From Candidatus Woesearchaeota archaeon (GTDB lineage: Archaea > Nanobdellota > Nanobdellia > Woesearchaeales > UBA10216), in contig JACPTF010000002.1 in assembly GCA_016192915.1 (NCBI GenBank), forward strand, positions 195,530-259,529: a DNA stretch of 64,000 nt. Reading direction: 5' to 3'. The notes beneath the pieces are model-generated. The model was not told the DNA's origin, ran no database searches, and was given only the letters and a program-made list of their open reading frames with translations. Below are positions 48,923-64,000 of this stretch, piece after piece. Made by a program: the position numbers and the translations under genes. Within the stretch, counting starts at the first letter, position 1, and each line of letters opens with the position of its first letter.

Positions 48923-49651
48923 ATGATGGCAAGTTTAGAAGGCAAAACTGTTTTGGTGACGGGAAGCGCTAAAGGGCTCGGAAGAGCCACGGCAATCTCA
49001 CTGGCAAAAGAAGGCGCAATTGTGGTTGTGCATTACCGCAGTAGCAGAAGGGAAGCTGAGGCTACGTTAGCAGAAGTTAGGCGCTTATCGCCAAAGTCTA
49101 TTCTGGTTCATGGTGATGTTACCTCCGCGAGTGATGTTGGCAATATGTTCAAGCAGATAAAATCAAAGTTTGGGAGGCTTGACATTTTGATAAACAATGT
49201 CGGCGCCTTTATTTTCAAGCCCATTTCTGAAACTTCTGTGGAGGAGTTCAGCAACGTAATTGATACAAACCTCAAGGCTGCTTTTCTGTGCTCCAGCGAG
49301 GCTCTCATAATGATGCACAAGCAAAAGTCGGGCCACATCATTAATTTCGGTTGTGTTGGCGCAGACAGGATAACAATCAGGGAAAAGACAACCCCGTACT
49401 ACATCGCCAAGACCGGAGTTTACATGCTGTCCAAGATAATGGCTCAGTCAGAGGCTAAGAATGGCATCCGCATTAACACCATTTCTCCTGGCGTGCTTGA
49501 GACTAGTGTGGCAAAACCGGCAGGCTCAGTCATAATAAAGCACAAGGACATAATCAACGCGATACTCTATCTTCTGTGCGGCAGCTCAGAGAAGATAACC
49601 GGCGCTAATATAGAAGTTTCTGGCGGTTGGATTCCTGGCTCGGCTGGTTAA
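48923..49651 (+). CDS. Short-chain dehydrogenase/reductase
   Basis: 242 residues. Classical SDR: TGSAKGLGR near residue 12, NNVGAF, and the catalytic Ser region with YYIAKTGVYMLSK (Tyr and Lys). Ends GGWIPG, as in FabG-like enzymes. The FabG group and pteridine reductases are both possible; the Arg typical of the PTR1/FolM first motif is absent, so FabG-like is favoured. Start 48923 fits the TATA spacing better than TTG 48902. Its end overlaps the purH stop by 4 nt. Confidence 0.9.
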   Translation: MMASLEGKTVLVTGSAKGLGRATAISLAKEGAIVVVHYRSSRREAEATLAEVRRLSPKSILVHGDVTSASDVGNMFKQIKSKFGRLDILINNVGAFIFKPISETSVEEFSNVIDTNLKAAFLCSSEALIMMHKQKSGHIINFGCVGADRITIREKTTPYYIAKTGVYMLSKIMAQSEAKNGIRINTISPGVLETSVAKPAGSVIIKHKDIINAILYLLCGSSEKITGANIEVSGGWIPGSAG

Positions 49652-50901
49652 TGCCTGAATACCCTTTGCCCTGTGAACACCATGGCTATGTTGCGCTCGT
49701 TGCACGCTTCTATGACTTCAGGGTCGTTTATTGAGCCGCCTGGCTGTATTATTGCAGTTATGCCTTGTTCAGCAGCTGCGTCAATGCTATCGCGAAACGG
49801 GAAGAAACCATCCGATGCAACCACAGAGCCTTCGATGCTTCCTTTCTCTTTGGCTACAGCCGCGTCAATCTCGCTTTTTTGCCTCTGCTGAAGTTGTGTG
49901 TAAGTAACTTCGTATTTTTCAACGCTGAGCCTGTCAGAAAATTTCTTGTGTGCCTTTATTATCGCAATCTCAACAGCCCCTACCCTGTCCTGCTCTCCTG
50001 GGCATATGGCAACAGTTGCCTTGTTCTTTGCAAAGACTATGGCGTTGGAGGTTACGCCTTGCACAATCTTCCAGGCGAACAGCATATCCTCATACTCTTT
50101 TTCGGTGGGCTTTCTTTTTACCGTATATTGCTCTCCCTGGTTTTCGGCAGCTGCTATCATCAGGTCATCTTTGCTTCTTATTCTTGTTTCTTGCGATACT
50201 TGAGCTATCAGTCCGCCGTCCATTAGTGATTTGAAGTCTATGTAGCACAGGTCTCTGTACGCATTTAGCCGTTCTATGTTCTTTATCCTTATCAGGCGCA
50301 TGTTTCTCTTCTTGAGAAGCATGTCAAGTGCTTCTTTTTCAAAATCAGGAGCTGCAACAACTTCCAAGTAATGCTTCATTACCTGTTCAGCAGTTGCCGC
50401 ATCCACAACCCTATTCAAGGCAGCTACCCCTCCGAACGCAGCCAGCCTGTCGGCCATATAAGCCTCCTTGTACGCTTCAGCTATTGTTGTCCTGCTTGCC
50501 GCCCCGCATGGGTTGTTGTGCTTCATTATTACCGCAGTTGGCTCGTCAAAGTGTTTCAGTATTGCCAACGCATTATCAACGTCTGTAAGGTTGCTTTTTC
50601 CTACATGCTTGCCGCTTTCCATCAAATCAGAATCAGAGATGCTGCTCACAAGCCCTTTGCCTTCCCCGCCTTTGACATATTTACAGCCGCCAATACTGAG
50701 GTTGCTTTCCTTCAGCTCGTACAGTGCTGCCTCCTGTCCGGGGTTGTCGCCATACCTGAGCCCTGTCTTTTTGCCGCCAACGGCCCATTGCCTTTTCTTG
50801 TAGCGCAGCTTTTTGTCGCCAAGTGTTATCGTTAAGTCTTCTGGGAAGTTATCACTAAGCACTTCCTTGTACATCGCGCTCAGCTTCTTTTTCTCAGCCA
50901 T
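49648..50901 (-). CDS. purH: AICAR formyltransferase (PurH C-terminal domain as a free protein)
   Basis: 417 residues. It makes FAICAR from AICAR using formyl-THF. Motifs: RYGDNPGQEAA, VIMKHNNPCGAA with the Lys-His pair, AFGGVAALNR, and SDGFFPFRDSID. In bacteria this domain follows the IMP cyclohydrolase domain in one chain; here that is a separate gene just upstream (2-nt gap). With two PurP genes also present, the step can be done by formate or by formyl-THF. Confidence 0.95.
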   Translation of the reverse strand: MAEKKKLSAMYKEVLSDNFPEDLTITLGDKKLRYKKRQWAVGGKKTGLRYGDNPGQEAALYELKESNLSIGGCKYVKGGEGKGLVSSISDSDLMESGKHVGKSNLTDVDNALAILKHFDEPTAVIMKHNNPCGAASRTTIAEAYKEAYMADRLAAFGGVAALNRVVDAATAEQVMKHYLEVVAAPDFEKEALDMLLKKRNMRLIRIKNIERLNAYRDLCYIDFKSLMDGGLIAQVSQETRIRSKDDLMIAAAENQGEQYTVKRKPTEKEYEDMLFAWKIVQGVTSNAIVFAKNKATVAICPGEQDRVGAVEIAIIKAHKKFSDRLSVEKYEVTYTQLQQRQKSEIDAAVAKEKGSIEGSVVASDGFFPFRDSIDAAAEQGITAIIQPGGSINDPEVIEACNERNIAMVFTGQRVFRH

Positions 50902-50903
50902 CT

Positions 50904-51554
50904 TTACTCAACCTTATATTCTTTTTTCACAGCTGCCGCAGTCAGCTTGTTGTAATAGCCGCCGATGTTGCCAATGTAAGCGCTTAAGTAGTCCGTTGCC
51001 TCTTTCGCGAGCCTTATCCTTGTGTCAATGCCGCAGGAGCCATTGTTCTTCTTCATTTCCTCAAGCACTTTTTCGTAGTCAACCGGGCTTACAACAACGG
51101 CAACACGAAGAAAATTCTTTGCAACTGATTCTATCAAGCTTACGCCTCCTACGTCAATGTTCGTTCTCGCCTTCTCGATGCTCTTTCCCTCTGCGGCCGA
51201 GGCAAAGGGGTAAAGGTTCACAACCACGAGGTCAAACGCAACCGCGCCACTTTCATCAAGGTATTTCCGCTGCTGCTCATCGCTTAGGTCGGCCAAAATT
51301 CCCGAGTGTATCTTCGGGTGAAGTGTCTTTACAAGCCCGGCAGGCATCTCCTTAACTCCTGTATACTCGGAAATCTCGACAATATTCGCAGCCGCCACCG
51401 CCTTTCTCAGCTCGTTGTAAGTCCCGCTGCTGCAATAAATCCTGACATTGGGGTTTATTTTCACCAGCTCGCTCACGAAATACTTGAGGCCTGTCTTATC
51501 GTGGCAGCTGATAAGCGCGTTGCTGATTTTTACGCTATCTTTTATGTTAGTCAT
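50904..51554 (-). CDS. purH: IMP cyclohydrolase (PurH N-terminal, MGS-like domain as a free protein)
   Basis: 216 residues. It closes the ring of FAICAR to IMP. An MGS-like fold: ALISCHDKTGLKYFVSEL, SGTYNELRKA, VKEMPAGLVKTLHPKIHSGIL, DLVVVNLYPF and NIDVGGVSLIESVAKN. It overlaps purA by 4 nt upstream. The archaeal PurO is thus not needed. The split arrangement is known in some archaea. Confidence 0.94.
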   Translation of the reverse strand: MTNIKDSVKISNALISCHDKTGLKYFVSELVKINPNVRIYCSSGTYNELRKAVAAANIVEISEYTGVKEMPAGLVKTLHPKIHSGILADLSDEQQRKYLDESGAVAFDLVVVNLYPFASAAEGKSIEKARTNIDVGGVSLIESVAKNFLRVAVVVSPVDYEKVLEEMKKNNGSCGIDTRIRLAKEATDYLSAYIGNIGGYYNKLTAAAVKKEYKVE

Positions 51555-56072: not shown

Positions 56073-56573
56073 CTAATATAGAATTCCAACAATTACATAT
56101 CTTATTTGTTCAAACCTCACCTTTTCAGGGTCGTTATTCCGCGAGTTGTCGCCTTTCGTTACCGCAAACCATCCTTGTTCGTCGCTTCCAACTGCTGTAA
56201 CCCTGTGCACCACCAGCCCCCCGGCCTCTTCCGAGTGGTAAGCTATAATGTCGCCTTTTGCTATGTCACTGCTCTTCTGCGGCAGTATCATTATTGCTGT
56301 GCTGTTTTTGCCGAGCAAAGGCCCCATTGAGTTTGTGCCTTCAATCCTGCCTATTGTGGCATTGGCTATCCTTACCACCACCGCTTCCCCTCCCGCCCTT
56401 ATCTGGCTCTCTGCTATCCTGTCCTGGGGGAACAAGGCATCAGCCTCTGCCCCTTTTACTGCAAAGCCGGTTATTCCGATGCCCCTGTCCATTGAGCCTG
56501 TAAGCAGTGCTATGGCTGTGGCTGCCAGAATCGCAATTGTTGCCACGGCTGCCGCAATACGCATAGCCTTCAT
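56073..56573 (-). CDS. Small S26 signal-peptidase-like protein
   Basis: 166 residues. One N-terminal membrane span (IAAAVATIAILAATAIALL) then GITGFAV, an external part with the catalytic Ser in GTNSMGP, IAKGDIIAY, His in LVVHRV and Asp in TKGDNSRNND. It has the Sec11-like Ser-His-Asp set in a shorter frame than the gene at 9.7 kb. A TATA element at 56593-56603 gives a leaderless start. Being next to the coiled-coil and giant surface genes, it may process a specific envelope protein. Confidence 0.85.
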   Translation of the reverse strand: MKAMRIAAAVATIAILAATAIALLTGSMDRGIGITGFAVKGAEADALFPQDRIAESQIRAGGEAVVVRIANATIGRIEGTNSMGPLLGKNSTAIMILPQKSSDIAKGDIIAYHSEEAGGLVVHRVTAVGSDEQGWFAVTKGDNSRNNDPEKVRFEQIRYVIVGILY

Positions 56574-56631
56574 AAGATCCGGCTGCCAGAGCCGATATAT
56601 AAACCTTGCTATTTTAGCTATTTGAAAGTAG

Positions 56632-57831
56632 TTACAATTTCAGCCTACTTTGCTTCTCTTTTGCAAGCCCGCTCAGTACCCTGTACTGGTCCAGAAGCTG
56701 GTTTCTGAGCCGCGCTTTCCTTTCTTCAGGAACATCCACTCTCGTGGCCAGTTGGGTGTATGAGCTTCTGGCAAGGTTGTAAAGCGTTATTGCCGAGTTC
56801 ACGTTGTGCATGCTTATTGCCTTTTCGAGCTCTTCAATCTCTACTTCAAAATCAGCCAATGCGCCGCTGCTTTCAGTGCTCCTTGCGCCAGCCTTGCTTT
56901 TCAGGCTTCGCAGCTCCTTCTCTTTGCTCTCTAACTCCCGCCTCAGCTTCCTTACGGTTTCGTCTGCTGCCTGCTCGTCTGCCTTTTTCTGCGCCGGGTA
57001 GCCTGAAATCCTGCTCTGGAGGCTCTCAAGTGATGTATTGCCTGCCTGTTCAATTCCCTTGTTAAGCTCTGACTTCAGCTTGTCCAGGTCGCTCTGGTCA
57101 ACCAGCGCTGACTGCGCTTTTATCTTGACTGCCTCAACATCGCTTTTCAGCTTTTTGAACCCTTCCTGCATCGCTGAAACAGCATCATGGTACCTTATCA
57201 GCTCATTTGCCTGTTTCTGGAACTGCACATAGACGTTGCCAACCTTGTTTGCGTGGCTTTCTATGCTGGCTTCAGTGCGCTTTATCTCTGCGAGGTTCCT
57301 GCTTGTTTCCTCGTTCAGCCTCATGAGCTCTTCCATTCCGTGGAACACAGCCATTTTTTTCCTGATTTCCTTAAGCTCTTCCATGAGCTTCTGGTAGAGG
57401 GCGTTTCCTGCCTCTATCTTTGCCTCGAGGACATCATACTTTGCTGTTCCTTTTTTGGCCTCTGCCAGTATGCTTTCCGGCTTCAGCTCCTCAACTGTTT
57501 CTGCTGCCTTGGCTGCTTTAATGCCAACTTCCTTTATCTCTTCTTCCTTCTCCAGAATCAGGTTTCTGAGCTCGCCTATCTGCTCGCTTATCCTTGAGAA
57601 CCTTTCCGAATCCGCCTTTCTCAGCTCTGACAGGGCTTCAAGCTTCGCAGTAAGCTTTTCAAAATTAGCAAAGTTCGCCACTCCGGCGCCGCTGCTCTGG
57701 CTGCCGCGCTTCCGCGTCTTTCCTGGCTTTTCCGGCTCGGCCCCTTCTTCCTCAGGCTGCTCAGGCTCGTCATCCGCTGCCAGCTCTTCTTCCTCTTTTT
57801 TCCTGCCTATGCCAAACAGCCTCAACTTCAC
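56632..57831 (-). CDS. Cytoplasmic coiled-coil protein next to the giant surface protein
   Basis: 399 residues, GTG start after AAAAGGGGT. A short basic beginning KLRLFGIGRKKEEEE, an acidic region with Glu/Pro (15-45), then almost continuous coiled coil to about 320. The final 70 residues (DFEVEIEELEKAISMHNVNSAITLYNLARSSYTQLAT) look like a compact helical domain with TPR-like helix pairs. Its own TATA-like element lies at 57872-57880. It could be a cytoplasmic partner of the ATPase in the giant protein; no family known. Confidence 0.8.
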   Translation of the reverse strand: MKLRLFGIGRKKEEEELAADDEPEQPEEEGAEPEKPGKTRKRGSQSSGAGVANFANFEKLTAKLEALSELRKADSERFSRISEQIGELRNLILEKEEEIKEVGIKAAKAAETVEELKPESILAEAKKGTAKYDVLEAKIEAGNALYQKLMEELKEIRKKMAVFHGMEELMRLNEETSRNLAEIKRTEASIESHANKVGNVYVQFQKQANELIRYHDAVSAMQEGFKKLKSDVEAVKIKAQSALVDQSDLDKLKSELNKGIEQAGNTSLESLQSRISGYPAQKKADEQAADETVRKLRRELESKEKELRSLKSKAGARSTESSGALADFEVEIEELEKAISMHNVNSAITLYNLARSSYTQLATRVDVPEERKARLRNQLLDQYRVLSGLAKEKQSRLKL

Positions 57832-57941
57832 ACCCCTTTTTTATCTTCCTTATCTCTCTGGTTCTCGGCAGCATTTAAACTTTGGCTTTTGCAGCCTGCT
57901 GCCTCTCAGCGAGGACTTCATTGTGTCGCTCACCTTCCCGT

Positions 57942-60900
57942 TTATGCGCTTACAGCGCCGAATTCCTCTGCCAGTTTTTTCTTTTGTTCTTTGTTTAGCA
58001 CTTCGAGGTTTATTGGTATTATGCACGTGATTTTTTTCGCCGCTATTGCGTCTTTTATTCTTTGCATGAGGTTGTATGCCTGTTCAAAGCCTGCGTAGCT
58101 TATTATGAGCAGCATGCCGTCTATCATTATTGCTCCGCTGCCGTTTTTGCTTATGAAGTCTTTGATTTCGCCGTACATGGCTGATACGCTTGTTGGCGAG
58201 TATGCCCCTTCAACAGGCTCTGTTGTTATGAGCTTTATTTCCGTGTTTCGCAGCTTGTATTTTGCAAGCGCTGCCTGCTTGGTTGTTCTTGTGAAGCACA
58301 GGCCTTTGCCGTACTGTTTCAGGCTTTTCTGGAGTGTTTTGAACGCTGTTGCTGCCCCCTTTTCGTTTATGATGAGGATGCTGCCCCTTTTCAGCGCTGC
58401 TTTTCCAGCGTTTTCTTTTTCCTTGTTTTCTTTTATCACTATTCTTTCCCTTTCCGCCTTTGCCTTTCTGACGTCTGCTTTTATGTCTTCTATCGTTGCC
58501 AGCTTTTTCTCTCTCGCTTTTGGTTTTCTGCCGAGCTTCTCCCAGGCTTTTTTTGTTTTTGGCTCCAGGCTTTCCATGTATACTTCTACCATGGCGAAGT
58601 TCCCGCCGCTTAGCTTTTCCTTTGCGAGCTTCAGCTCTATCTCAAGGTCAAACACGTCAATCTTCAGCTCTTTAAGCTGGCTGATTTGGCTTGTGATTTC
58701 GTCAATTTTGTCATTGAACCTGTTGTATTTTTGCAGCTCTTCGTCACTAAGCCTTGTTACGCTGTGCCTTATCGGCCTGAATGAGACGAAGTATGCCCTT
58801 CCGTCGTTGTATTCCGCGTTTTCCAGCATTCCTGTTCCGACTGATGCTTTTATTATTGATGCTGAGACAGCCCCGTACTTTTCCTTGATTCGTTCAAGGT
58901 CTCCTTCGTCGCTTGTTCTCATTTGTATCTGGGTTGCAATGTTTGCTTTTACTTCTCCAACAAAGTCAGTCAGCACTTGGCTTATCAGCACCAGCCCTAT
59001 GCCCCACTTCCTGAACTCCCTGGTTGCCCTTTCAAGCTGCACCAGTCCGTCTCCTGAGCCTCCGAACTTTGTCAGCAACCTGTGCACTTCATCAAAGACC
59101 AGCAGCACTTTGAGTTTTGGGCTTTCCTCAAAGTTAGCCATGAATACGCTTCTGATTGTATTTGCAACGAAGACATCTATGTCTTTTGGTGTGAGCTTGT
59201 TTAGTGCCAGGATTGTTATCTTTCCCGGTTCAGCAAGCCCTTTCAGGTCTACGAGTTCTCTTGGCTCTGTTACCTGCCGTATGTTGCCTTGGTACGCCCT
59301 TGCCTGTTTCTGGCCCATCCCGAAAGCGCCGTATCTTGCGAGCATTTGCTTAGCCTGGCATTTTCTGAGGAATCCTGTCCATTGGGCTGCGGGGTCAAAC
59401 ACAATCACAGCAGTTCCTTTTTCCAGCGCTTCTTCCACTATGTCCTGCGACGCTATTGTTTTGCCTGAGCCTGTTGCTCCTGCTACTATGGTGTGCGTTG
59501 TCAAGTCATCAACTCCCACATATGCGTTTGTGCTTGTCTCTGCTACCTTCCCAACCCAACCTGCTCTTGCTCCCCATTTTGGCAGCTTTCCAGTGTTTAC
59601 AGCCACGACATACCTCCTTCTCCTTTTCCTGGCTGCCCTGTATTTCAGCGCAGACTCGAGCAGTATTGGCATTGCTGCCATAACCAGAAGAAGCTGCCAC
59701 ACCTTCACAAATAATATCTTTTTGAAAAGGTAGGGCTTCAAAACTTCAATCAGCGGCTTTTGCACCCTGACATGCGCTATTGCCGTTGCGGTGTGCACGC
59801 CTTCCTTGTCAGAGTAAGTTGCTGTCGCTTTCACAATGTATTTGCCGAGCTCTATGTCCTTTGGTATCTCGAAAAGCTTAAGCACGCTTGTTGACGTTTC
59901 TATGGCTATCGCTTCTTCTGATTTTTCTATTGTCTTGTTGCTTTCCGCGCTTATGAGCTCAACAAGAAGCTGTACGTCAAACCTTCCCCCTTTCTCGCCA
60001 AGGTTGTAGATGTCCACCCTTACCTTAAGCTCATCTCCCGGGCTGACAACAGTATCGAGAGGCTGCACCCTTACGTCAAGCAGCTTTTCCTTCCCGATAG
60101 GTGCTTTCACCTTTATTGAGACTGGCAGGATTATTTTCTCGCTTTCGCTTGTTATTACTATCTCGCCGCTGTAAGTGCCTTCCTTTGTTCCTACAGGCAC
60201 GAATATGCTTATTGGCAGCTTTTCTGTTCCCTTTGCCTTTATCGTGAGCGACTCTTGGACATTTATCAACTGTTCAGCTTTTCCTTTGACTTCAATCTTC
60301 AGCTGCATGTCAGCGTTGCCGTCGTTCTTTAGAGTGAGGATTGTTGTCGTTCCCTCGCCTGCAGTTAACTCATGTGTCAGCCTGTTAGCGTCAAGGCTCA
60401 GGTCTCTTATACCTGCCCTTCCGGTGAGGTCTTTCAAAAGCTGCTTTGCAGCAGCCCCTCCACCACCCCCTCCCCCTCCTCCTCCTGCTCCACCTCCTGC
60501 CCCTCCTGACGATGCAGCTTTGCATGCCCCGCTGCTGCACCCATTAGCGCAGCTGCTGCTTGTCCAGCTTCCTGAGCTGCATGTCTGCAGGTTGTCACCG
60601 TTGCATGCTGTTCCTCCATTGGCGTATGTTACTCCATTGTCAGCGCACCCTCCCGATGCGGCGCACCACGTGTTTGAGCTGCTGAAGCCTTTCGCGCAGT
60701 TGTTGGAACTGCAGCTGCTGTTGGTTGTGCAAGGCTTTCCGTTGGCCAGTAATCCTCCTACTCCGTAGTCGCTGAAGTTGGTGACATTCGCCCAGACGTA
60801 GTTCAGCGTTGTATTCACGCTTGTGTTTAATACCCAGCCCATAGTTGTGCTGTTGAGCTTTTCCCAGGCGTTCTTGCTTGCATTATACCGATACATTGCC

Positions 60901-63900
60901 AGGGTGTCTTCTGAAATGTTTGAATCTGAGATTTCTGTTTCGTTGTAGTCAACCCTTAGCAGGGCGCTTGAGAGGGCTGTTGTGAGGTTGCCGCTGACTT
61001 TTACTTCAACATATTTGAGCGGTGTGACGTTCAGGTCTTCTGTTACGGTTCTGTTCACTGTTGTCTCCTTTCCTGCTGTCACGTTCACAAAGGAATTTGT
61101 CGAGTCTGATAATGTCACTATTTCAATAAGGACCTTTATGCCAGATGAGTTCACTGTTGTGGTCTGGTTCGCTGTAGTGTTTACCAGGTTTACAATCTTT
61201 CTGGGCATTGTAAAGGTGTTATCCGCTGTGGTGTTGGTGTTCATCACGCTGTCTGAGCTGCTTACCCTGTAGTGGTATGTGGTGTCCTGGCTCAGGCCGC
61301 TTATGAAGACAAGGTGCCTTGTTACGTTGCTCGAGTTGCTCGCTGTTGAGCCGTAGCTCGTGTTTAAGCCATACTCCACAGTGTCGTTGCTGTTCTCGTT
61401 AGTGTTCCAGAATATCACCACTGTGCTGTTCGTTGCCTCAATTACCGTCAGGTTGCCAATCACAGGAGCAGCCGTATCGAGGTAAAGCGTCCTTGTTGCG
61501 GTGGTGTTGCTGTTGCCGGCTTCATCAACGATGGTCACATTGTAGCTGTAGTTGCCCTCCCTGAGCCCTGTGAAGTTGTTGCTTCTCGCCTTGGCTGTTG
61601 AGGTTACTGAGCTGTAAAGGTGTGTTGTGTTGTAGAGGTAGAATGTAATGTTTGATTCCCTGGCGTCGCTGGCTGTCACGTTTACGTATACCCAGCTTCT
61701 GCTGAAGCTTGAGCCTGTTGCCTCTGTGGCTGGCCCGTAGCTTATGCTCGGCTTTGTCGTGTCAAGGGTGAAGAACACCTTTGTGCTGTTTGAGCTGTCA
61801 TTTATGCCATCGCTTGCATAGGCGTTGTAGGCGTAATAGCCATCAGAGGCGTTCATCGTGGCGTTGGCTGCCGAGCTTGTGGTGTTGAGTGTGTCGTTGA
61901 TGAAGTGGTAGTAAGTTATTGCCTCGCCGTCAGCATCTGTGCTTGTCGAGTTGAGTGCGATGGGCAGGCTTGTGATGTAGGAGTTGTTCTCCGGATAAAC
62001 TATTGCCGGCGTTGTAGGCACAGAGTTATTTGAGTTTACTCTCACGTTAAAGCAGCTGTTGGATGTGGTGTTCTGGTTGCCTGACGTGTCGTTGAAGTAA
62101 AACCTGCCGCATACGTTCTTTCCGGCAGCTGCTGTTATTGTCTTTGTTACGTTGAATGCCCTTGAAGTTCCGCTTATCGTCACTGGAGTGTCATTGGCGA
62201 AGCTTCCTGAGTTGTTGAAGCTGAACATTACAGTTTTCAGCGCAACCCCATCAGCCAGCGTTACTGACCAGTTAACTGCGCCATTTGTCTGAGTCACAGT
62301 TGAGGCGTTGTTTGAGAGGTTGGTGTAAGTTGGTGCCGTAGCATCCAGTATCGTATACACAAAGCTTTCCTGCTTGTTTACTGTGCCGTCATTGCACGTT
62401 ATCGTTACAGTATTAGCCGCCACTTCGCTTTCCGCAGGCGTGTCTGATATTTCTCCTGTTGTCGCGTCTATCACGAACAATGCCGTGTTGTCTGAGTAGG
62501 TTATTGAGTCGTCATCAAAGTCAGTGCAGTTGACATCATAATAGAAGCTTTGGCCTGAGTTGGCCGACTGGTCTGCAAGAGCAGGGCTGAAAACCGCAGC
62601 GGCATTTGCCACATCAAAGCAGCTTCCTGTTGTGCTGTTAGTGTTGCCTGCGCTATCATTGAAGTAGAACCTGGCGCACACATTCTTCCCCTTTGTGGCG
62701 TTAATCTGCTTTGTTGCGCTCGCGAATTTTGTCACGCCAGAAACCGTTACCGGTGTGTCGTTTGCAAAGCTTCCTGAGCTGTTAAAGCCGAAGGTGTATG
62801 CGTCAATTTGTCTGTTGTCTGAAATGTTTATTACCCATAGTACGGAGCCGTTGTACGTAGTTACTGTGCTGGCGTTACTGGAAAAGTTATAGTAAGTTGG
62901 CGCAGCAGAATCAAAAGTGAAGTTATTGTTGGCTGATACTGTGCCGTTTTCAGCTCCATCATAGGCGGTTACGTTCCACAGCAGCTGGCCCTGGCTGGCA
63001 GGCGTGAACGTGCAGTTCCTGTCCGCGGTGTAGCACTGCAGCGTGCCATTGACAAGTACATAGTAGTTTATCACGTCTCCGTCAGCATCGCTGCTGGCGT
63101 TCCATGTCAGGTTCACCTGCGAGTTTGTTAACGCTACTGTAAAGGTTATGTTTGTTTGCGCCGGTTTCTGGTTGGGGTAGGTGTTTGTTAGCAGGCTGCT
63201 TTGAGTTCCTGTTCCGTTTATGTCGCTTATGTTTATCTGTACCGTTGTTGTTGTGAGGCTTGTTCCTGTGCAGTTGTATGTTATGTTGAATAGTGTTCCT
63301 GAGGTTGTGTTTTGCCTGTAGTTGCAGGTTCCTGATGTTGTGCTTACGTTCCTGAACATGATGTCTAATGCTCCGTCGTTGTCGTCAACAGCGTAGCTTA
63401 CGCTGAAGTTGTGTCCTGTGTAGTTTACGAATTGCAGGTCATGCCTTTGACCAGGCACCTGGTTCGGGTATGTGTTATTGGATTCTGTTGTGTTTATCCC
63501 TCCTCCTGTTGTATCACTTACGTTTATGTGAAGCTTTTGCAATGTTAGGCCTGTGCCTGAGCAGTTGACTGTTATGTTCAGCAGGTTGCCTGACGTGGCG
63601 TTTGCGAGGTAGTTGCAATTCGCAGAACTGATATTTCTTCTGATTATGTCTCCTGAGCCATCAAGGTCAAGGAATGCTGCCGAGGCATTAAACTGGTGGC
63701 TGTTAGTGTAGTTAACGAACTGTATGTTATGTGCAACAGTTGGAGTTGTTACCGGGTATACGTTGGCTAATAAGCTGCTTTGCGTACCTGTTCCGTTAAT
63801 GTCACTTACGTTAACCTGGACTGTAGCAACAGACGCTCCCGGCCCTGTGCAATTGTACGTCACGTTAAACAACGTCCCGCTTGTGGTGTTGGTTACGTAA

Positions 63901-64000
63901 CTGCATGCCCCAGAAGTTATGCTTACGTTCCTGAACATCATTTCTGCTGCCCCATCGCTGTCATCAACAGCGTAAGAAACATTGAATTGCGCACCGTTCG
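57942..64000 (-). CDS. Giant surface adhesin fused to a HerA/VirB4-like ATPase and DUF835-like domain (N-terminus beyond window)
   Basis: 2018 residues visible; the frame stays open to the right edge with repeat sequence, so the start lies outside. Layout: at least three 95-residue extracellular repeats, a FN3-like unit, two related Cys-bearing repeats with a cadherin-like insert, FN3-like units, a PGF-pre-PGF-like segment, a Cys-rich module (60520-60740), a poly-Gly linker, NEW3-like domains, one membrane span (59650-59715), a basic stretch, then a HerA/DUF87-like ATPase with Walker A AGATGSGKT (about 59460-59487), Walker B VLLVFDEVH (about 59083-59109) and GIGLVLISQ. A coiled coil and a DUF835-like end (58360-57942) follow. 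Many N-x-S/T sequons suggest glycosylation. It would couple an outer adhesin to an inner ATPase. Confidence 0.9.
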   Translation of the reverse strand, partial: NGAQFNVSYAVDDSDGAAEMMFRNVSITSGACSYVTNTTSGTLFNVTYNCTGPGASVATVQVNVSDINGTGTQSSLLANVYPVTTPTVAHNIQFVNYTNSHQFNASAAFLDLDGSGDIIRRNISSANCNYLANATSGNLLNITVNCSGTGLTLQKLHINVSDTTGGGINTTESNNTYPNQVPGQRHDLQFVNYTGHNFSVSYAVDDNDGALDIMFRNVSTTSGTCNYRQNTTSGTLFNITYNCTGTSLTTTTVQINISDINGTGTQSSLLTNTYPNQKPAQTNITFTVALTNSQVNLTWNASSDADGDVINYYVLVNGTLQCYTADRNCTFTPASQGQLLWNVTAYDGAENGTVSANNNFTFDSAAPTYYNFSSNASTVTTYNGSVLWVINISDNRQIDAYTFGFNSSGSFANDTPVTVSGVTKFASATKQINATKGKNVCARFYFNDSAGNTNSTTGSCFDVANAAAVFSPALADQSANSGQSFYYDVNCTDFDDDSITYSDNTALFVIDATTGEISDTPAESEVAANTVTITCNDGTVNKQESFVYTILDATAPTYTNLSNNASTVTQTNGAVNWSVTLADGVALKTVMFSFNNSGSFANDTPVTISGTSRAFNVTKTITAAAGKNVCGRFYFNDTSGNQNTTSNSCFNVRVNSNNSVPTTPAIVYPENNSYITSLPIALNSTSTDADGEAITYYHFINDTLNTTSSAANATMNASDGYYAYNAYASDGINDSSNSTKVFFTLDTTKPSISYGPATEATGSSFSRSWVYVNVTASDARESNITFYLYNTTHLYSSVTSTAKARSNNFTGLREGNYSYNVTIVDEAGNSNTTATRTLYLDTAAPVIGNLTVIEATNSTVVIFWNTNENSNDTVEYGLNTSYGSTASNSSNVTRHLVFISGLSQDTTYHYRVSSSDSVMNTNTTADNTFTMPRKIVNLVNTTANQTTTVNSSGIKVLIEIVTLSDSTNSFVNVTAGKETTVNRTVTEDLNVTPLKYVEVKVSGNLTTALSSALLRVDYNETEISDSNISEDTLAMYRYNASKNAWEKLNSTTMGWVLNTSVNTTLNYVWANVTNFSDYGVGGLLANGKPCTTNSSCSSNNCAKGFSSSNTWCAASGGCADNGVTYANGGTACNGDNLQTCSSGSWTSSSCANGCSSGACKAASSGGAGGGAGGGGGGGGGGAAAKQLLKDLTGRAGIRDLSLDANRLTHELTAGEGTTTILTLKNDGNADMQLKIEVKGKAEQLINVQESLTIKAKGTEKLPISIFVPVGTKEGTYSGEIVITSESEKIILPVSIKVKAPIGKEKLLDVRVQPLDTVVSPGDELKVRVDIYNLGEKGGRFDVQLLVELISAESNKTIEKSEEAIAIETSTSVLKLFEIPKDIELGKYIVKATATYSDKEGVHTATAIAHVRVQKPLIEVLKPYLFKKILFVKVWQLLLVMAAMPILLESALKYRAARKRRRRYVVAVNTGKLPKWGARAGWVGKVAETSTNAYVGVDDLTTHTIVAGATGSGKTIASQDIVEEALEKGTAVIVFDPAAQWTGFLRKCQAKQMLARYGAFGMGQKQARAYQGNIRQVTEPRELVDLKGLAEPGKITILALNKLTPKDIDVFVANTIRSVFMANFEESPKLKVLLVFDEVHRLLTKFGGSGDGLVQLERATREFRKWGIGLVLISQVLTDFVGEVKANIATQIQMRTSDEGDLERIKEKYGAVSASIIKASVGTGMLENAEYNDGRAYFVSFRPIRHSVTRLSDEELQKYNRFNDKIDEITSQISQLKELKIDVFDLEIELKLAKEKLSGGNFAMVEVYMESLEPKTKKAWEKLGRKPKAREKKLATIEDIKADVRKAKAERERIVIKENKEKENAGKAALKRGSILIINEKGAATAFKTLQKSLKQYGKGLCFTRTTKQAALAKYKLRNTEIKLITTEPVEGAYSPTSVSAMYGEIKDFISKNGSGAIMIDGMLLIISYAGFEQAYNLMQRIKDAIAAKKITCIIPINLEVLNKEQKKKLAEEFGAVSA
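63150..64000 (-). repeat. Three tandem extracellular protein repeats in the giant gene
   Basis: Units of about 95 codons start near 64000 (partial), 63729 and 63439. Each has FVNYT-type ends, DDxDG, RN(V/I)S, a Cys pair (SGTCNY and YNCTG) and (S/T)DxxGxG, then NxYPNQ-type joints. Units 1 and 3 are closest, the middle is more diverged. They continue past the edge. Confidence 0.85.

Follow-up and report, generated by a model that had tools for sequence, protein, structure and literature searches.

The 64,000-nucleotide stretch of DNA analysed here, referred to as the window (G000:C1:195530-259529, from a genome of 1.2 Mb in 20 contigs), carries a gene for a giant protein whose sequence indicates an N-out/C-in orientation in the membrane and combines an intact HerA-type ATPase with an outer arm that varies. 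When 371 genomes of the phylum were searched with the 597-residue region from the membrane span to the end, and matches below 1e-20 were counted, the core of this protein, here called the motor, was found in 67 of them. The coiled-coil protein encoded beside it is a true, conserved partner. The most likely reading is a contact-dependent translocation motor, for which we infer the oligomer, the translocation, its cargo and direction, and the partner cell.

The gene is a single uninterrupted ORF on the minus strand (57942-63998) that stays open through the edge of the window to the end of contig C1, 253 bp further on (G000:C1:259782). Up to that point it encodes 2103 residues, with neither a start nor a stop upstream. 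The contig break falls inside an array of Asn/Thr-rich repeats of about 92 residues (63168-63998, minus strand) with four copies, one of them cut; three reach into the window and the fourth lies wholly outside. The repeat had no match on any other contig of this genome, so the true N-terminus of the gene lies beyond the assembled sequence. The signal peptide that the initial annotation expected upstream could thus not be located in the window copy, while a complete relative, L006 in genome G123 (3933 residues), begins with a hydrophobic signal-like segment followed by LamG, Ig and fn3 domains, the membrane span, the ATPase and DUF835, the order being the same throughout.

From the outside inward, the ectodomain consists of the 92-residue repeats, two units of about 98 residues with the pattern APTY...CF(D/N)V separated by an Ig/cadherin-like stretch (62043-62903, minus strand), an fn3-like domain, a Cys-rich and Gly-rich linker, and a juxtamembrane tandem pair of Ig-like (NEW3-like) domains (59760-60446, minus strand). 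A single membrane span followed by RKRRRR on the cytosolic side (59631-59723, minus strand) leads into the HerA-clade ATPase domain (58769-59630, minus strand), a conserved helical region (58506-58769, minus strand) and a DUF835 domain (57945-58385, minus strand), an inactive KaiC-like domain labelled iKaiC (PMC5847659). Pfam scores lay above the cut-offs for DUF835 (78.7 bits, cut-off 33.1), DUF87 (33.7, cut-off 23.2) and HerA_C (32.3, cut-off 22). The 1425 residues of the ectodomain contain 90 N-X-S/T sequons, compared with 36 ± 5 in composition shuffles, and the cytosolic part contains one. The one hydrophobic span beside RKRRRR, with 90 sequons on one side and one on the other, indicates the N-out/C-in topology. 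An STT3/AglB-type oligosaccharyltransferase homologue is encoded in the same genome, which makes glycosylation of the outer arm plausible. The initial annotation had placed a sequon-rich ectodomain, one membrane span, a HerA ATPase and DUF835 in one chain, and both the positions and the order proved right.

The ATPase domain was matched by Pfam, NCBIfam, PDB and PADLOC entries and has a Walker A motif, GATGSGKT (59457-59480), a Walker B motif, LLVFDEVHRLL (59073-59105), and an Arg-finger motif, REFRKWG (59001-59021), all on the minus strand. The features that mark the FtsK-HerA group, namely Walker A, the DE of Walker B and a conserved Gln after strand 4, were present. Among 23 aligned cores, with a mean column identity of 58%, the Walker A lysine and REFRKWG were invariant (23/23) and Walker B was DE in nearly all. 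In the profile alignment REFRKWG lay over REGRKFG of archaeal HerA (4d2i), which we take to be the Arg-finger region of that enzyme; the loss of the Arg finger that the initial annotation had named as a point against itself was therefore not observed. The PDB profile search returned 4d2i (E 4e-12) and several bacterial HerA complexes, with FtsK marginal. The best PADLOC match was Mad8 (3.8e-18), over most of the domain. Local NCBIfam matches were led by CedD, a DNA-import ATPase (1.5e-11), followed by the VirB4 and TraD families. The NCBIfam HerA models scored 27-29 bits against cut-offs of 800-970, and the CedD equivalog 43.7 bits against 600, with a match that covers only Walker A and its surroundings, about 60 residues in all. 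The homology to HerA begins just before Walker A, straight after the membrane span, and the N-terminal β-barrel of HerA was not found. AlphaFold monomer models of the ATPase, from a two-sequence alignment, were of low confidence (mean pLDDT 46-57). The possibility that the protein is a moonlighting repair HerA was rejected, since its domains are laid out differently and a soluble HerA (L001) is encoded elsewhere in the genome.

The motor family varies greatly in size. Open frames spanned some 700 to over 8,000 residues and the outer arm ranged from none to more than 7,000, while the ATPase remained about 50-60% identical. The Ig-like pair could be aligned in 22 members, down to the shortest whose N-terminus is complete, and in the forms of about 700-800 residues it directly follows the signal peptide. 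The predicted pair folded well (confidence 70-84), Foldseek related it to proteins with tandem Ig-type domains, RbmA and WxLIP among them, and the corresponding region of L006 gave an NPCBM_assoc match. As judged from the alignments, the constant core is the Ig pair, the membrane span and the ATPase, and the arm and the C-terminal domain vary. The tail beyond the helical region is DUF835 in L006, G016:C4, G143:C9 and the window gene and, as judged from its sequence, in G375, so the order of span, HerA ATPase and DUF835 anticipated by the initial annotation does recur, in G375 of the same genus with 73-83% identity across the span and ATPase, and in G016 and G143 at a greater distance. DUF835 does not, however, define the family: most other forms carry a DUF5752-like HVNxxKNDxAxW motif as tail and some have no tail domain at all. 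A tree of 30 cores placed most of the 1,150-1,500-residue forms and the short forms in one weakly supported group (85/89), to which the giant forms did not belong. No plasmid match was obtained, and viral contigs gave only remote ATPase matches, so that neither a plasmid nor a viral origin of the motor was retained.

Three tandem motor loci of the same family (L053-L055) pair an intact short paralog with a long one (L053:5074-10155, L054:10529-15076, L055:6874-11319) whose Walker B reads DG instead of DE. The long paralogs are probably catalytically dead partners, and the tandem arrangement of intact short and DG long motors suggests a hetero-oligomer.

The coiled-coil protein (56632-57831, minus strand) is predicted to be cytosolic and is separated from the motor ORF by 110 bp. 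Homologues were found directly or closely downstream of the motor in 18 of the first neighbourhoods compared, and they align over a central region in which G86, E87, R89 and G165 are invariant. A profile search located the coiled coil in 78 of the 371 genomes: 60 had both genes, 7 the motor only, 18 the coiled coil only and 286 neither. It was thus present in 60 of the 67 motor genomes (Fisher 1.1e-44, uncorrected for genome relatedness). Of the 18 genomes with only the coiled coil, ten belong to a single genus and match weakly; leaving them out gives counts of 60, 7, 8 and 296. Of the matches within 5 kb of a motor, all 54 lay downstream on the same strand. The arrangement is accordingly beyond chance, and the suggestion that the coiled-coil protein is part of the system held. 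Neither FlaC_arch nor Arch_fla_DE was among the best 25 of 59 Pfam families listed for the coiled coil, nor among the Pfam families listed for the companions in the split loci described below, and the PDB search returned generic coiled coils only; an archaellum-like (ArlC/D/E) assignment was set aside. By eye, the C-terminal helices of the window protein (56632-56850, NSAITLYNLARSSYTQLA) resemble the cytosolic tails of the split-locus surface proteins. In G375 an ORF pair that gives the impression of AbiEi/AbiEii (L095:6535-8084) lies between motor and coiled coil.

The third gene of the proposed trio did not share this linkage. It encodes a small protein like archaeal signal peptidase I (56073-56573, minus strand), 58 bp from the coiled-coil ORF, that scored 44.6 bits against TIGR02228 (cut-off 51.85) and in which candidate Ser, His and Asp residues are preserved (NSM, VHRV, GDN). 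The gene occurs in 6 of the 19 genomes of the family. It adjoins the motor locus in G000 (the window genome), G123 and G375, and on a different contig of G375 it is next to a split-type locus; in G293 it lies on other contigs, and in G253 it stands beside the same flanking genes with neither motor nor coiled coil. We treat it as a local neighbour and not as a conserved part, so that the expected co-occurrence of three genes reduces to motor and coiled coil. Three genomes of the family have a gene for a KaiC-like ATPase close to the coiled-coil gene (L006:14782-15588, L095:5615-6457, L097:3417-4292). This gene was found in none of the remaining genomes among the 19, the window genome included, and was not retained as a general part. 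Elsewhere in the window (49648-51554), purH is, by reading, apparently split into adjacent transformylase and cyclohydrolase ORFs with a purA-like gene next.

Split-type loci add a ribbon-helix-helix gene, DUF5752 proteins and a surface protein of about 1050 residues, which combines a PKD domain, a single span and a helical tail in the cytosol and whose gene precedes the motor. The motor was present in 40 of the 44 genomes that strongly match this protein (hand count). Its juxtamembrane region is conserved (e.g. L042:4421-7597), and weaker relatives occur in 171 of the 371 genomes. No match was obtained in G123 or in the window genome, which rules the protein out as a part there. A stand-alone relative of the DUF5752 companions is encoded elsewhere in the window genome (L082:1706-2407, G000:C13).

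ATPases of the HerA, FtsK, VirB4 and VirD4 families work as hexamers that transport DNA or protein. The reading that we tentatively favour is a conserved Woesearchaeal envelope module, in which the arm would hold a partner cell, an ATPase ring would move DNA or protein and the coiled coil would assist. The HerA-clade ATPase would be fixed under the membrane by its one span, and on the outside the chain would expose the Ig-like pair and an adhesive arm that is variable and probably glycosylated. The arm would bind the partner (host) cell; beneath the point of contact the ATPase would form a ring and drive DNA or protein through the spans, themselves arranged in a ring; and the cytosolic coiled coil may dock the cargo or couple the subunits. 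Several observations favour such a translocation motor, 1) the recurrence of the core in the phylum, the Walker A lysine and the Arg-finger motif being unchanged in all aligned members, 2) the matches to HerA structures, to CedD, VirB4 and TraD, and to Mad8, 3) the linkage to the coiled coil, downstream in all linked copies, 4) the extreme variation of the arm over a conserved ATPase, 5) the second single-span surface protein ahead of the motor in split loci and 6) the same architecture in nanohaloarchaeal epibionts, where it was read as secretion and host attachment (PMC10266531). On the other side, neither a relaxase nor an obvious polytopic channel was seen by eye among the conserved neighbours, no VirB4 N-domain (PF03135) was found in the giant chain or anywhere in the genome, one span per subunit would make a thin pore, and the Walker B glutamate is lost in the longer paralog of the three tandem loci, which implies that some arm-bearing copies do not need ATP hydrolysis. 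The missing PF03135 protein and VirB6/CedA-like polytopic neighbour, the latter judged by eye among recurrent neighbours, and the lack of plasmid relatives also speak against a complete T4SS. The more specific proposal of a distinct, self-contained DPANN machine for contact-dependent translocation, made of a hexameric HerA with a host-binding arm on each subunit, the coiled coil as adaptor and optionally the second single-span surface protein, and working with neither a pilus nor a polytopic channel, is unlikely.

The main rival to translocation is a mechanical or scaffolding use of ATP, which we consider possible, if somewhat improbable. The machine would move no cargo; the ring would cluster, tension or polarise the arms, with the coiled coil and the DUF5752 and DUF835 domains as a scaffold comparable to a motility machine's cytosolic collar. 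The same lack of a conserved channel or cargo gene, the scaffold-type nature of the constant neighbours (coiled-coil and DUF5752 proteins), the dead-ATPase paralogs, the kinship of DUF835 with inactive KaiC (PMC5847659) and a very weak ArlH match are consistent with it. The characterised relatives in the HerA/FtsK superfamily nevertheless pump polymers, and the archaellum families were not among the Pfam matches listed for the coiled coil (best 25 of 59) or its companions. A Ced-like machine for DNA uptake or exchange, its ATPase pulling DNA in from the contacted cell, is decidedly unlikely: CedD, which is TM-anchored and needed for DNA import (PMC11868833), gave the best local NCBIfam match, but that match is short and far below its cut-off, and neither a CedA-like polytopic protein near the gene nor a link to DNA repair was seen. 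We regard as very unlikely a membrane-bound signalling receptor that would report arm binding through the ATPase and DUF835; DUF835 does terminate archaeal response regulators (PMC5847659) and a KaiC-like gene lies near the coiled coil in three related genomes, but most members have no DUF835 and the window genome has no such KaiC-like gene. That the chain is a chimeric assembly or frameshifted fusion, a doubt already raised in the initial annotation and prompted by the contig end inside the gene, has a negligible chance, and is refuted at the junction of span and ATPase, since the same fusion is present in the independent genomes G123, G375, G016 and G143.

The putative translocation motor bears on the open question of how DPANN archaea attach to their host cells and exploit them. 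The concept was in print for another DPANN phylum (PMC10266531) before the initial annotation proposed it as new; what is new is a widespread, better-defined Woesearchaeal form of giant surface-motor proteins with a well-supported coiled-coil partner. A proposal made for a few nanohaloarchaea is thereby extended to a large uncultivated group in a biochemically testable form. The motor and coiled coil make up a concrete minimal gene set with strong linkage statistics over 371 genomes, the Ig pair, span and ATPase form a conserved architecture searchable in other lineages, and the motors provide a natural series from 700 to more than 8,000 residues that includes probably dead partners. The literature search returned no experiment on the motor family, nothing on HerA or T4SS in Woesearchaeota and nothing on DUF5752.

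Among known systems, the HerA repair helicase (4d2i) shares the RecA-type core, the Walker motifs and the Arg-finger motif, but the motor has the membrane span and ectodomain in place of the N-terminal β-barrel region. CedD/CedB and VirB4/VirD4 are likewise TM-anchored ATPases of the superfamily, and CedD, a HerA/VirB4-type ATPase required for DNA import (PMC11868833), is by score the nearest characterised TM-anchored archaeal relative; the motor differs in falling far below the family cut-offs, in its huge ectodomain and in that no T4SS or Ced partners were seen. Mad8 of the MADS defence system in PADLOC is a compact HerA-type ATPase that aligned over residues 7-287 of 314, whereas the Woesearchaeal motor is membrane-anchored with a surface arm and no defence partners were found.

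The closest likeness is to the nanohaloarchaeal giant proteins of 8,880 and 9,409 residues (SVXNc_0300 / BNXNv_0298), which have a Sec signal, about 75 Ig-like domains, a membrane span, a cytosol-facing VirB4/TraG-like ATPase and a terminal coiled coil, and were read as secretion straws, with host binding and effector secretion proposed (PMC10266531). That paper reinterprets the SPEARE proteins (Hamm et al. 2019, as cited there) in the same way. In the nanohaloarchaeal giants the chain itself ends in a coiled coil and is followed by a second VirB4 with PF03135, whereas in the Woesearchaeal locus a separate gene, the next one, encodes the coiled coil, the motor carries a DUF835 or DUF5752 tail, no second VirB4 is present in the window, and tandem HerA paralogs occur in some loci only. 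The Woesearchaeal family also has short and split forms, unlike the nanohaloarchaeal giants as described. Both groups are DPANN lineages, and the nanohaloarchaeal giants and SPEARE proteins, like the complete L006, have a signal peptide, tandem adhesive domains, a membrane span and a cytosolic VirB4/HerA-type ATPase in the same order. That the Woesearchaeal motor works like the nanohaloarchaeal giants is well supported by this anatomy, the likeness being one of described architecture.
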